From a virus, in IMG/VR virus record IMGVR_UViG_3300024259_000009, positions 1 to 38,308 of that record: a stretch of DNA of 38,308 nt. One strand, 5' to 3'. The position numbers were made by a program, and so were the translations under genes. Positions 10,513 to 30,998 of the stretch are shown here, one piece after another; the stretch's first letter is position 1, and the number at the start of each line of letters is the position of its first letter. The notes beneath the pieces are model-generated. The model ran no database searches. It was given only the letters and a program-made list of their open reading frames with translations, and had not been told where the DNA came from.

Positions 10513-11085
10513 TTAGCTAAGGAAAGTTTCAAATGCTGATTTATCCTTTCCTTTATTGTCGTCACCCCTACCACGAGAATCATCAAGGTCATCTTCGGTA
10601 TTTGTTGGCTTCCCGAAATAACCTATCTTCTCGTAAGGTTTGAGCATTGATATATTCTGAGCAATATCCTGTTCCGTATAATCGTCTATATTATCGTGGA
10701 AAACAAAGTCATCTTTGATAGCTTGGATATTCTCATATAACTTGTCATCTTCATCTACTGCAAAGATTTTAGCTTTATCAATCCAATGTTCACGCTTTTC
10801 CTTGAATGCTTTATGCTTGAACTCAGTCAATTCGGTTTTATACGTTTCTGATTCTGTGACCTTTGTTTCTAAACCTTCAATCTTGACTCCATTCTCTGCA
10901 ATAGTAGCTTCCAATTCAGCGTTATTAGCTCTCAATTCGTTTCTTTCACCAATAACCTCATTAAAACGACTTACGGGTATTCCAGTATTTCCCGACTCTG
11001 CAGTCTTAACAAGCTGCTCTATGCTTGCCATTAATTCAGGGTTTTCGACCCCTGCTGTCGTAAATAAATCTTTTACTTTACTCAT
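10513..11085 (-). CDS. Scaffolding protein
   Basis: A 190-residue, highly charged, helical protein just upstream of the major capsid gene. I chose ATG 11085 (MSKVKDLFTTAGVENPELMA) because AAAGGAG lies nine bases before it; an upstream ATG at 11106 has no ribosome site. The middle is a coiled coil (residues about 40-90). The C-terminal half is acidic and ends in a GRGDDNKGKDKSAFETFL tail. This is the usual design of capsid scaffolds. Confidence 0.8.
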   Translation of the reverse strand: MSKVKDLFTTAGVENPELMASIEQLVKTAESGNTGIPVSRFNEVIGERNELRANNAELEATIAENGVKIEGLETKVTESETYKTELTEFKHKAFKEKREHWIDKAKIFAVDEDDKLYENIQAIKDDFVFHDNIDDYTEQDIAQNISMLKPYEKIGYFGKPTNTEDDLDDSRGRGDDNKGKDKSAFETFLS

Positions 11086-11200
11086 CTTCTTTCTCCTTTT
11101 TTTCATCTTTAGTGATGGATTTTCCCCAATCTATTTTATTATAATTATCTGAATATTTCTTTGAATAACCGCCTGACTTGAATCTGTCTTTATGTTCCAT
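11078..11200 (-). CDS. Small Lys/Glu-rich protein upstream of the scaffold gene
   Basis: A 40-residue gene starting MEHKDRFKSGGYSKKYSDN and ending KKEKEDE. AAGGG stands upstream of its ATG at 11200. Its end overlaps the scaffold start by eight bases and holds the scaffold's ribosome site, a typical coupled arrangement. It is strongly charged; no domain is recognised. Confidence 0.5.
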   Translation of the reverse strand: MEHKDRFKSGGYSKKYSDNYNKIDWGKSITKDEKKEKEDE

Positions 11201-11246
11201 TTATTAACCCTTTAGTTAATTCCAATTGGTTTTGAACTATTAAGTT

Positions 11247-11395
11247 AACAAATGACGGGATACCTAACCATAGGCAACGGAATTGAACCGTCTGATATAC
11301 GTAAACAGCTAAATTATGTACATTCATTAGCTGAGTCTTTAGTATATTGAACACACATTCTTTCGACAGAATCGAACTGCCATCCGTCATTTGTT
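11247..11395 (-). ncRNA. Candidate structured RNA with 12-bp closing stem and tRNA T-arm-like hairpins
   Basis: Bases 11247-11258 and 11384-11395 are perfect inverted repeats (AACAAATGACGG) that close a 149-base element between two late genes. Read on the minus strand, the interior folds into several helices. One is GGCAG-TTCGATT-CTGTC and another is GACGG-TTCAATT-CCGTT; both have the 5-bp stem and 7-base loop of a tRNA T-arm. A third is CAGCTAA paired with TTAGCTG, inside an ATATAC/GTATAT stem. A fourth is a small CCTA-TGGT-TAGG hairpin. No complete tRNA cloverleaf, tmRNA or ribozyme core could be built. It might be a processing signal, a remnant of tRNA genes, or a new RNA. Confidence 0.5.
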
Positions 11396-11472
11396 TTATT
11401 ATTTTATGGTTAATCATTCTATTATTCTATCCACATTTCTTATAATTAATTCTCTCCAATCTTTCTTTTTCA

Positions 11473-12210
11473 CTATTCCCCCTTTTTATAATCTTCTTTG
11501 AGAATCTGCATAAATGTATGACGACAATTCCAGCGGAAGCCTTCTGATTCAAATTCTATTCTCTCTTGGTCTGTGAAATATTTTTGGTTTAATCCTTTTA
11601 CACATTGAGGTCTTGTTTTGCCATCGAGAACTCCAATATATTCCCAAAACTTCTCACCTTCGTAATGTGCTGCTGATAAATATTCTGCTTTCTGCATCAA
11701 TACTTGTCTTGATGTTAATACATAAGTTTTAGCGTATCTTTGTAGTTTATCTTCTAATATCCTTGTTAATTCTAAATGGATATTCCTAAAATCTTCACCT
11801 GCTAAGACTGCACTCATAATATTAGTTTGCAGTGTCTTCCCTGCACCTTCTGCTATACCAAACAGTTCTACATAGTCTACCGTCTGCAATGCTCTAAATG
11901 TACCGACATCAACCTTAGTAAAATTAAGTGGGAAATTACTTGTTGCCCGTGCTTTCATCATCTCTTTGATTACATTAGATTGATCCGCATTAAAGTTATT
12001 AATAAATTGTGTGAATCCTGCTTGATTCAGCATTTGATTATAGTTGGTTGTAAATGCTGTTGATAGATTCATATTAACGTCATTGAATACGATATTACCG
12101 TCAACTGTTTGTAACGTAGCAAGCCAACTATTCAACTCAGCTTCTAAATTACGTACTACGATGTCAATTTGACTATCGAATACTTTAACGCTTTTATCTA
12201 TTGGATTCAT
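11473..12210 (-). CDS. Minor head protein (SPP1 gp7 / Mu F-like)
   Basis: A 245-residue protein directly following the portal gene. The C-terminal region shows the family signature of the Mu F / SPP1 gp7 head morphogenesis proteins: WEYIGVLDGKTRPQC, then NCRH near the C-terminus, with conserved Cys, Asp, Thr and His. These proteins bind the portal and are needed for DNA ejection or head assembly. The N-terminal half is helical. The gene starts at ATG 12210, adjacent to the portal stop. Confidence 0.85.
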   Translation of the reverse strand: MNPIDKSVKVFDSQIDIVVRNLEAELNSWLATLQTVDGNIVFNDVNMNLSTAFTTNYNQMLNQAGFTQFINNFNADQSNVIKEMMKARATSNFPLNFTKVDVGTFRALQTVDYVELFGIAEGAGKTLQTNIMSAVLAGEDFRNIHLELTRILEDKLQRYAKTYVLTSRQVLMQKAEYLSAAHYEGEKFWEYIGVLDGKTRPQCVKGLNQKYFTDQERIEFESEGFRWNCRHTFMQILKEDYKKGE

Positions 12211-17081: not shown

Positions 17082-17113
17082 AAAGAAATAAAATAAAGTT
17101 CTTGACACATAAA
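17082..17113 (+). promoter_or_regulatory. Promoter-like motif shared with 30474
   Basis: Bases 17082-17107 are identical to 30474-30499 and end in AAAGTTCTTGACA. The following bases (YATAAA) also match. The 13-base core occurs a third time, on the minus strand at 28920-28908. In all three cases a short gene or operon follows. A TATAAT lies only 11 bases after TTGACA here, so the -10 element is not canonical. Confidence 0.55.
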
Positions 17114-17148
17114 CCGCTTATAATGTAGTCAGAAATTAAGGAGGAAGT

Positions 17149-17280
17149 ATGAAAATATATAAAGCAAATTATGAAGATGGAGAATTTGAATTATTAGATT
17201 CTGATTCCGACTCTGACGCTAAATTCCAAGCGTGGGAAAAAGAAGATGAACACCAGATGCAAACTACAATCTTAAGATAA
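17149..17280 (+). CDS. Small acidic protein, 43 residues
   Basis: ATG 17149 has AAGGAGG at good distance, and the promoter-like block at 17082 lies 40 bases upstream. The sequence is strongly acidic (DSDSDSDAKFQAWEKEDEHQ), which suits a DNA mimic or an adaptor, but nothing more can be said. It is followed by a small hairpin (ACGTG/CACGT, 17281-17296) and the attC-like site at 17316. Confidence 0.55.
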   Translation: MKIYKANYEDGEFELLDSDSDSDAKFQAWEKEDEHQMQTTILR

Positions 17281-22925: not shown

Positions 22926-24110
22926 TTAATCATCAAACTCTATTAATCCAATATTATAATCTCTGATTAAATGTGTTTGATTTGCTAATTTAATTAATGA
23001 TTTCATTTTAAATAATTTTTTGATAAGTGGGTTATCGCCAATATAATTTAATTTTAGCAAATGGAAGAGTAGTTGAAAAATAAATTTATCTCCAACTTTT
23101 ACTCCAAACGCTCCGCACCATAACGGGAAGCAGGAAAAGTCCAGATTAGCCCCACTCAGATCAACACCGATCAGATCAACACCACTCAGATTAGCACGTC
23201 TCAGATTAGCATCTCTCAGATTAGCACCGCTCAGATTAGCACCACTCAGATTAGCATCTCTCAGATCAACACCACTCAGATTAGCACCACTCAGATTAGC
23301 ATCTCTCAGATCAACACCACTCAGATTAGCCCAGCTCAGATTAGCACCGCTCAGATTAGCACCGCTCAGATTAGCACCACTCAGATTAGCATCTCTCAGA
23401 TCAGCATCTCTCAGATTAGCCCAGCTCAGATTAGCACCGCTCAGATTAGCACCGCTCAGATTAGCACCACTCAGATTAGCATCTCTCAGATCAACACCAC
23501 TCAGATTAGCCCCACTCAGATCAACACCGATCAGATCAACACCACTCAGATTAGCATCTCTCAGATCAGCATCTCTCAGATTAGCACCACTCAGATCAAC
23601 ACCACTCAGATTAGCCCAGCTCAGATTAGCACCGCTCAGATTAGCACCGCTCAGATTAGCACCACTCAGATTAGCATCTCTCAGATCAGCATCTCTCAGA
23701 TTAGCCCAGCTCAGATTAGCACCGCTCAGATTAGCACCGCTCAGATTAGCACCACTCAGATTAGCATCTCTCAGATTAGCCCAGCTCAGATTAGCACCAC
23801 TCAGATCAACACCGATCAGATCAACACCACTCAGATTAGCATCTCTCAGATCAGCATCTCTCAGATTAGCACCACTCAGATTAGCATCTCTCAGATTAGC
23901 ATCTCTCAGATCAACACCACTCAGATTAGCCCCACTCAGATCAACACCGATCAGATCAACACCACTCAGATTAGCATCTCTCAGATTAGCCCAGCTCAGA
24001 TCAGCATCTCTCAGATTAGCACCACTCAAGTCAGCACGTCTCCCATCTTTTTCATCATTAATCCATCTTAAATGTATTTCTAATATGGTTTTCAATTCTT
24101 TAATTTCCAT
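22926..24110 (-). CDS. Pentapeptide-repeat protein (60 units)
   Basis: A 394-residue protein. Residues 26-325 are 60 uninterrupted pentapeptides of the type A(N/D)LSG, A(N/D)LRD, VDLIG and ANLSW, which would fold into a right-handed quadrilateral beta-helix of about 15 coils. An N-terminal helix of 25 residues precedes them. A 69-residue C-terminal domain follows, starting SCFPLWCGAFGVKVGDKF. Pentapeptide proteins of the Qnr/MfpA type mimic DNA and bind gyrase; others have unknown roles. The unit order at DNA level is strongly repetitive, so unequal recombination could change length. AGGAGG precedes the ATG. Confidence 0.9.
   Translation of the reverse strand: MEIKELKTILEIHLRWINDEKDGRRADLSGANLRDADLSWANLRDANLSGVDLIGVDLSGANLSGVDLRDANLRDANLSGANLRDADLRDANLSGVDLIGVDLSGANLSWANLRDANLSGANLSGANLSGANLSWANLRDADLRDANLSGANLSGANLSGANLSWANLSGVDLSGANLRDADLRDANLSGVDLIGVDLSGANLSGVDLRDANLSGANLSGANLSGANLSWANLRDADLRDANLSGANLSGANLSGANLSWANLSGVDLRDANLSGANLSGVDLRDANLSGANLSGANLRDANLRRANLSGVDLIGVDLSGANLDFSCFPLWCGAFGVKVGDKFIFQLLFHLLKLNYIGDNPLIKKLFKMKSLIKLANQTHLIRDYNIGLIEFDD
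23136..24035 (-). repeat. 15-bp tandem repeat array coding for pentapeptides
   Basis: Sixty tandem 15-base units with very few variants (plus-strand forms TTAGCACCACTCAGA, TTAGCATCTCTCAGA, TCAACACCACTCAGA, TTAGCCCAGCTCAGA). Higher-order blocks of several units recur, for example around 23341, 23413 and 23629. This indicates recent expansion by slippage or recombination. It is coding and spacer-free, so it is not a CRISPR. Confidence 0.95.
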
Positions 24111-24252
24111 AATTCCTCCTATTTTTCAAAAGTTCCTTCTCATATTTCAAACAACTAATCTCTCTATCTAATTTAGCACGATTTCCGCCACCGAATACAA
24201 CTCCGATAACGAAACCTACCAATAAACTACAGCCGATTTCTAATATAACCAT
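24100..24252 (-). CDS. Truncated copy of the 30868 membrane protein gene
   Basis: A 50-residue frame with N-terminus MVILEIGCSLLVGFVIGVVF (a membrane segment). It is the same as the protein at 30868 apart from one substitution (Ile to Ser) and then diverges after LLK, ending NRRNYGN. The DNA identity ends at 24122, and the stop overlaps the pentapeptide gene start. GGAGGG precedes the ATG. It is probably a gene fragment left by the duplication, perhaps still expressed as a leader of the pentapeptide gene. Confidence 0.5.
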   Translation of the reverse strand: MVILEIGCSLLVGFVIGVVFGGGNRAKLDREISCLKYEKELLKNRRNYGN

Positions 24253-24309
24253 TTGATACTCCCTCCATAACATCGCAACCTTTTCTTGCAGAAAAGCGTT
24301 TTGACGTTA
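24122..24309 (-). repeat. 188-bp inverted duplication, copy A
   Basis: The minus strand from 24309 down to 24122 is identical to plus-strand 30811-30998, except for one base in the coding part. It covers most of the attC-like site and the first 43 codons of the small membrane protein. The two copies face each other across about 6.5 kb that holds the replication genes. Confidence 0.93.
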
Positions 24310-30473: not shown

Positions 30474-30505
30474 AAAGAAATAAAATAAAGTTCTTGACAT
30501 ATAAA
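30474..30505 (+). promoter_or_regulatory. Promoter-like motif shared with 17082
   Basis: Bases 30474-30499 are identical to 17082-17107, followed again by YATAAA. It lies inside the cassette, between its 5' box and gene 30548, and so gives the cassette its own promoter. Confidence 0.55.
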
Positions 30506-30547
30506 TAGAGTTTTAAATAAAGTGGAATCAGAAATAAAGGAGAAAGC

Positions 30548-30799
30548 ATGAAGTGGATTAGTGTTGATGACAAAATGCCTGATGATGATTTATTGAAAGT
30601 TGTTGCATATTCTGAGTTTTGGAAGGGTAAAATAGGATCACATATTGGAATAACAGTGTCAAGATATTACTTGCCTTCAAACCAAGTAGATAAAAAGTCT
30701 TGGTGTTTTGAATTTGGAAATACACAACATACAAAAATAACTCACTGGTGTTCAATACCAGACACAGGTATTATAAAGAGAACAACAGAAACATTTTAA
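30548..30799 (+). CDS. DUF551-like protein
   Basis: An 83-residue protein. The start MKWISVDDKMPDDDLLKVVA and the end THWCSIPDTG match the layout of DUF551 phage proteins ('W.sv.d.lP' at the start, 'tHW.plP' near the end). The role of this family is unknown; it is common among early phage genes. AAAGGAG precedes the ATG. It lies between attC-like sites 7 and 8. Confidence 0.72.
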   Translation: MKWISVDDKMPDDDLLKVVAYSEFWKGKIGSHIGITVSRYYLPSNQVDKKSWCFEFGNTQHTKITHWCSIPDTGIIKRTTETF

Positions 30800-30807
30800 T
30801 TGATTGA

Positions 30808-30855
30808 CCATAACGTCAAAACGCTTTTCTGCAAGAAAAGGTTGCGATGTTATGG
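30808..30855 (+). other. attC-like recombination site 8 (copy B of site 3)
   Basis: R'' box CCATAAC (30808-30814), hairpin CTTTTC (30824) / GAAAAG (30835) with loop TGCAA, R' box GTTATGG (30849-30855). From 30811 onward it is identical to site 3; only the first bases of R'' differ. Boundary complementarity with the 5' box at 30461 is limited to the core. Confidence 0.65.
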
Positions 30856-30998
30856 AGGGAGTATCAAATGGTTATATTAGAAATCGGCTGTAGTTTATTG
30901 GTAGGTTTCGTTATCGGAGTTGTATTCGGTGGCGGAAATCGTGCTAAATTAGATAGAGAGATTATTTGTTTGAAATATGAGAAGGAACTTTTGAAAAA
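30811..30998 (+). repeat. 188-bp inverted duplication, copy B
   Basis: Identical to the minus strand 24309-24122 but for one base. The copy begins in the R'' box of the attC-like site and ends inside the coding region of the small membrane protein. Confidence 0.93.

Follow-up and report, generated by a model that had tools for sequence, protein, structure and literature searches.

A structured RNA with two T-arm-like hairpins in a phage head operon: a candidate tRNA-mimic leader

YrlA RNAs (RF02553) have the layout of a Y RNA, in which a long terminal stem is combined with a T-loop and a D-like loop, and the tRNA mimic carried on the long stem can tether PNPase and can undergo modification by TruB and DusA (PMC8394870). 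YrlA has also been reported from mycobacteriophages (PMC12282133, PMC8394870). In the yjdF riboswitch, a tRNA-like leader frees the Shine-Dalgarno sequence, and tRNA-like leaders can raise translation (PMC9142559). Located ahead of yjdF genes, the yjdF riboswitch has four helices that meet in a junction, a single T-loop and an azaaromatic pocket. Phage T4 produces a structured RNA of 139 nt, RNA C (species 1 RNA), with a canonical T-arm near its 3' end. To our knowledge, no function of T4 RNA C is known.

The window analyzed here was the IMG/VR virus record IMGVR_UViG_3300024259_000009 (38,308 nucleotides), in which the late genes lie on the minus strand, so that the RNA is read from position 11395 to 11247. 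This segment was predicted to fold into a five-branched RNA of 149 nt closed by a perfect 12-bp stem, P1, with a 5' strand of AACAAATGACGG (11384-11395) and a 3' strand of CCGTCATTTGTT (11247-11258). All 12 pairs of P1 were Watson-Crick pairs, and the window contained no other inverted repeat of 12 Watson-Crick pairs with arms more than 100 nt apart. The minimum free energy of the transcribed strand was -44.4 kcal/mol compared with -29.3 kcal/mol for shuffled sequences (z = -4.0; 0 of 200 shuffles equal). Ranked against every 149-nt segment of this genome, the element had a GC-corrected z-score of -3.4, second only to a repeat gene. The plus strand gave a z-score of -4.1, which inverted repeats would lead one to expect; the genes and the T-loops of the region are on the minus strand. 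The predicted fold also contained a central long hairpin at 11295-11347 (ATATAC..GTATAT and CAGCTAA..TTTAGCTG), which was likewise visible as inverted repeats, and a weakly predicted small hairpin, GAAU-GUGU-GUUC, at 11349-11360. An earlier sequence-only reading of this DNA had proposed an unclassified structured RNA with a perfect 12-bp closing stem and a central stem; both stems were present in the fold, and the Rfam search gave no family match at the gathering threshold and only chance matches at E 10. BLASTN of the element against phages returned low-complexity matches only, and neither a promoter nor a terminator was found at the element.

We defined a strict T-arm as a 5-bp stem with a G53-C61 pair and a TTCRANY loop. 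With both strands counted, the 38 kb contained two such hairpins, GGCAG-TTCGATT-CTGTC at 11381-11365 (T-arm 1) and GACGG-TTCAATT-CCGTT at 11292-11276 (T-arm 2), and both were on the minus strand within the element, whereas shuffled windows contained 0.07 on average and a pair within 150 nt occurred in 0 of 300 shuffled windows. The two T-arm hairpins of the sequence-only reading were thus real, and they were the only strict pair in the window. More than 120 phage contigs contained the exact 17-mer of T-arm 1, almost all of them within real tRNA genes, and its sequence was that of the T-arms of phage tRNA-Thr and tRNA-Val. Directly 3' of T-arm 2 was a further hairpin, GCCTA-TGGT-TAGGT (11262-11275), absent from the sequence-only reading, whose TGGT loop is reminiscent of a D-loop and its pair of G residues and whose loop and spacing were repeated in five phage contigs.

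In contrast to tRNA genes, the element had no acceptor, anticodon arm or CCA. The tRNA models gave no complete cloverleaf; no tRNA was detected by ARAGORN, or by the Rfam tRNA model even at E 10, and no acceptor stem continued either T-arm. These results bear on a processing site, at which the T-arm mimics would bring RNase P, RNase Z or TruB/TrmA to cut or mark the late mRNA. Such a site would agree with the occurrence of the identical T-arm sequence in real tRNAs and with the modification of the YrlA T-loop by TruB (PMC8394870), but the missing acceptor stem and CCA and the unmatched tRNA model argue against it. That these enzymes are recruited, as the sequence-only reading suggested, is hypothetical, and we consider a processing site improbable. 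The data favor translation control of the next gene, or a Y-RNA-like tRNA mimic, at least as strongly as enzyme recruitment.

An open frame at 11190-11417 (minus strand) runs across the RNA. Its stop overlaps the next start, and it might therefore be a real gene for a 75-aa protein. However, its codon score of -0.071 per codon was below those of all 281 gene segments tested in this phage and was exceeded by 14% of non-coding frames, no relatives were found by tblastn or Pfam, and there was no good ribosome-binding site. We judged the frame to be non-coding, in agreement with the sequence-only reading, which had regarded it as a by-product, and a protein gene is scarcely credible. Together with the fold, these results supported the assignment of the element as a non-coding structured RNA with genuine T-arm mimicry.

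The gene upstream of the RNA was a minor head gene (Phage_Mu_F-like, 11473-12210, minus strand), as the sequence-only reading had stated; that reading had put the scaffold gene on the other side, but the gene directly downstream was a 40-aa gene (MEHKDRFKSGGYSKKYSDNYNKIDWGKSITKDEKKEKEDE, 11078-11200, minus strand) with a codon score of +0.495. Its Shine-Dalgarno sequence, AAAGGG, was at 11208-11213, and its stop overlapped the start of the scaffold-like gene (10513-11082, minus strand), which had no PHROG match and was assigned by position and a coiled-coil-like sequence only. The 40-aa protein had no database relatives; a possible relative sharing NYxKIDWxK was encoded directly after the Mu-F-like head gene of another contig (L178), with no RNA between, and since L178 was picked by the motif itself, only its gene position is independent support.

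A protein-guided search for diverged copies of the locus yielded two near-identical contigs and two diverged contigs in which the element or its site was missing. All three copies of the RNA, including that of the window, were identical across the element. Owing to this identity, the copies lend no covariation support to the stems of the window element or to the switch described below. In the nearest diverged phage with equivalent head genes (L007, major capsid protein 82%), the minor head and scaffold genes abutted with no insert. The operon of L007 instead had another kind of structured insert, a pair of strong hairpins (z = -4.3) at positions 301-436, which lay between a 52-aa frame and the minor head gene. 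The empty site in L007 and the perfect terminal repeats would suit a remnant of a MITE-like mobile element with 12-bp terminal inverted repeats, the structure being a by-product. However, there was no second copy in the phage and no visible target duplication, the patterns searched in IMG/VR found no further copies, and a mobile remnant does not predict two T-arms; we regard this origin as very improbable.

Several features of the window lay outside the head operon. A 78-bp tandem repeat array covered both contig ends (1-134 and 38062-38308), which suggests that the genome is circularly complete or terminally repeated. An inverted repeat of 188 bp (24122-24309 and 30811-30998), whose arms were 99.5% identical and separated by 6.5 kb, could allow the intervening DNA to invert, and a pentapeptide-repeat gene at 22926-24110 had internal DNA repeats that were 80-89% identical. 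Two leaders before plus-strand genes (17082-17153 and 30474-30552) were 78% identical, with TTGACA/TATAAT-like boxes and a Shine-Dalgarno sequence, and probably represent a shared early promoter.

The combination of a T-loop and a TGGT hairpin was searched in IMG/VR with the pattern GTTCRANYC, 4-7 nt, CCTNNGGTNAGG, which may miss members with different TGGT stems. Of the 28 contigs matched, mostly in coding sequence, two were those near-identical to the window phage, and three others (L151, L173 and L175) had intergenic T-loop/TGGT hairpins. Two more contigs, L024 and L052, had the module with different TGGT stems; they came from a scan of loci collected for T-arm 1 and not for the module, and the scan that first revealed them demanded a 4-bp stem. 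A stem-free pattern (GTTCRATTC, 8-9 nt, TGGT), run on 99 phage records that were mostly tRNA-rich, matched the five module contigs and one coding sequence, and the reversed control pattern had 0 matches. On a fair reading, the two unselected non-coding sites of the stem-free pattern (L024 and L052) both have a TGGT stem. Comparison of the four different TGGT hairpins showed changes on both sides at every one of the four stem pairs, with 100% pairing, which was equaled in 0 of 500 shuffles. A T-loop followed after 4-5 nt by a TGGT hairpin was thus present in L024, L052, L151, L173 and L175 besides the window. The pattern match in L127/G361 was rejected as apparent coding sequence with no TGGT stem. 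A covariance model of the window RNA recovered itself and, marginally, L175 and L151; a match in mycobacteriophage Adler was rejected since only 22 bases matched, with no T-loop.

The module was inside or beside tRNA clusters in four of the five other contigs, and in L024, L052 and L175 the gene that came next, whether annotated or predicted, was a tRNA, so no open frame followed the module. The longest enclosing stems were 28 bp in L024, 21 bp in both L052 and L173, 12 bp in the window, 10 bp in L151, and 8 or 15 bp in L175. At 451 other T-loops, with GU pairs allowed, 9% reached 12 bp and stems of 8-15 bp were common. None of these controls reached 20 bp, and the stems of L024, L052 and L173 were therefore significant, whereas those of L151 and L175 were not. 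We propose a group of phage T-loop/TGGT RNAs with a TTCRATT hairpin, 4-5 nt from C61 to the next stem, a 4-bp TGGT hairpin and a closing stem, all of which the window element contains. The module and the layout join the window to the five other contigs, and the six are putative homologues.

One member, L024, is the cultured Acinetobacter phage vB_AbaM_Acibel004, in which the element fills an unannotated gap of 164 nt from tRNA-Lys to tRNA-Cys and has the 28-bp closing stem. The related Saclayviruses Liucustia and P1 (the phage) had RNAs of equal length before the same TTTTAGGA flank, and these RNAs had a common GAAATTCTAG core and a T-loop-like hairpin. Between Acibel004 and Liucustia, 26 of 26 pairs of the terminal stem were kept, and 13 of them were changed on both sides. 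Other tRNA gaps of Saclayviruses (L224:770-883, L226:280-425, L222:2778-2873 and L224:3281-3376) held sequences of 96-146 nt that began within a few bases of a tRNA and had terminal stems of 17-23 bp with no T-loops. As several gaps without T-loops have such stems, long terminal stems are a broader habit of these arrays, and the gap sequences may represent a larger group of stable RNAs in tRNA arrays that have escaped annotation.

These relatives bring in the main rival to the leader proposed below, namely that the window element is released from the head transcript as a stable, free-standing small RNA comparable to YrlA or T4 RNA C, a mimic of the tRNA elbow that would bind a host protein acting on tRNAs, with the nearby start codon being incidental. 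The long stem, T-loop and D-like loop are those of the Y RNA layout (PMC8394870), the module relatives fill tRNA gaps with stems of 28, 21 and 21 bp where 0 of 451 controls had at least 20 bp, the terminal stem of the Acinetobacter phages covaries, and T4 RNA C, of similar size, likewise has a T-arm. As in YrlA, which is 90-150 nt long, the ends of the element are paired in a long stem (12 bp here) and a T-arm lies upstream of a D-arm-like hairpin. Unlike YrlA, the window element has two T-arms, and in six of six module members the T and TGGT hairpins are adjacent, with no acceptor-like hairpin between them. By eye, the uninterrupted P1 also differed from the conserved Ro-binding stem (GGCGA..UCGCC) of the true YrlAs L204 and L205, which is interrupted by an internal loop. 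RF02553 did not match the window phage even with the E-value relaxed to 10 and gave only matches below the cut-off in the other module phages, and no TROVE/Ro gene was found in the six phage genomes (the window and the five others), although a host copy is possible. On these grounds we rejected the window element as a canonical YrlA. Listeria phage P100, whose relative CKA15 has been suggested to carry Y RNAs, had no RF02553 match over the cut-off. In one gammaproteobacterial genome, four YrlA-like RNAs (L204, L210, L211 and L212) stood in tandem within 850 bases.

T4 RNA C lies in or beside tRNA genes, as do the elements of L024, L173 and L175, but has no TGGT hairpin after its T-arm and no long perfect terminal stem in its predicted fold. 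It was rejected as a homologue for want of alignable similarity, and the two RNAs are likely of separate origin. A free-standing RNA is further disfavored by the lack of a promoter or terminator at the element, and it leaves the occlusion of the 40-aa start, described next, unexplained. We nevertheless give it appreciable weight, well short of even, and place it close behind the leader.

The 3' strand of P1 was predicted to have a second partner, which the sequence-only reading had not described. A switching strand, CATTTGTTAACTT (11254-11242, minus strand), can form 13 bp with 11212-11198, covering the Shine-Dalgarno sequence and AUG of the 40-aa gene, and this helix is exclusive with P1. For the RNA from 11475 to 11080, the predicted energy was -76.7 kcal/mol with P1 enforced and -77.3 kcal/mol with the start-hiding helix; this difference of less than 1 kcal/mol is inside parameter error, and the two mutually exclusive folds are isoenergetic in the model. 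Binding of the switching strand to its target was better than that of 99.8% of 20-mers, with equally good binders numbering 21 of 10940 among window 20-mers and 2 of 5000 among random 20-mers, and local AT-richness raises the odds of chance complementarity. Among 36 gene starts, none was predicted to be as occluded as that of the 40-aa gene, which had an unpaired probability of 0.12 (next lowest, 0.30). These energies and occlusion values are predictions for one sequence, in which the region is predicted to have what defines an RNA switch in general, namely exclusive folds of which one hides a ribosome-binding site. Because only the P1 state exists before the AUG is transcribed, P1 should form first. 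Competition between the fold of a tRNA-like leader module and a pairing that occludes the Shine-Dalgarno sequence is shared with the yjdF riboswitch (PMC9142559); unlike in that riboswitch, the competing strand here is P1 and not the T-loop, and the yjdF family of Rfam did not match the element.

Our preferred, though tentative, explanation is that the window RNA is a tRNA-mimic leader controlling the translation of the two genes that follow it, the 40-aa gene and the scaffold gene. A tRNA-mimicking non-coding module would have entered the head operon downstream of the minor head gene and ahead of a small gene. In one state, P1 would be formed, the T-loops and the TGGT loop would be displayed as a surface like the tRNA elbow, and the Shine-Dalgarno sequence and AUG of the 40-aa gene, to which the scaffold gene would be coupled, would be free. 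In the other, the 3' strand of P1 would pair with the 40-aa start region instead and hide the start. The balance might be set by a host factor that binds the tRNA elbow or by the order of folding during transcription. The fold statistics, the non-coding frame, the recurrence of the module and the predicted exclusive helix are results of the analysis, whereas the operation of the switch, its direction and its trigger are inferred. Against a leader stand the absence of the insert from L007 and the modules of L024, L052 and L175, which precede a tRNA and not an open frame. A leader and a free-standing RNA are compatible with each other and not exclusive.

A broader and more doubtful proposal is that these RNAs make up an undescribed phage class of T-loop and TGGT elbow mimics with a long terminal stem, usually located between tRNA genes and adapted here as a translational switch for genes of capsid assembly. 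Mimics of tRNA are rare, and each points to some protein that reads the tRNA elbow. If the class is true and includes a cultured Acinetobacter phage, its benefit to the phage would be testable, whether as hijacking of the degradosome, as a decoy against tRNA-targeting defenses or in the timing of capsid assembly. A switch on the scaffold side of the head operon would be an unusual form of RNA control in phage morphogenesis.
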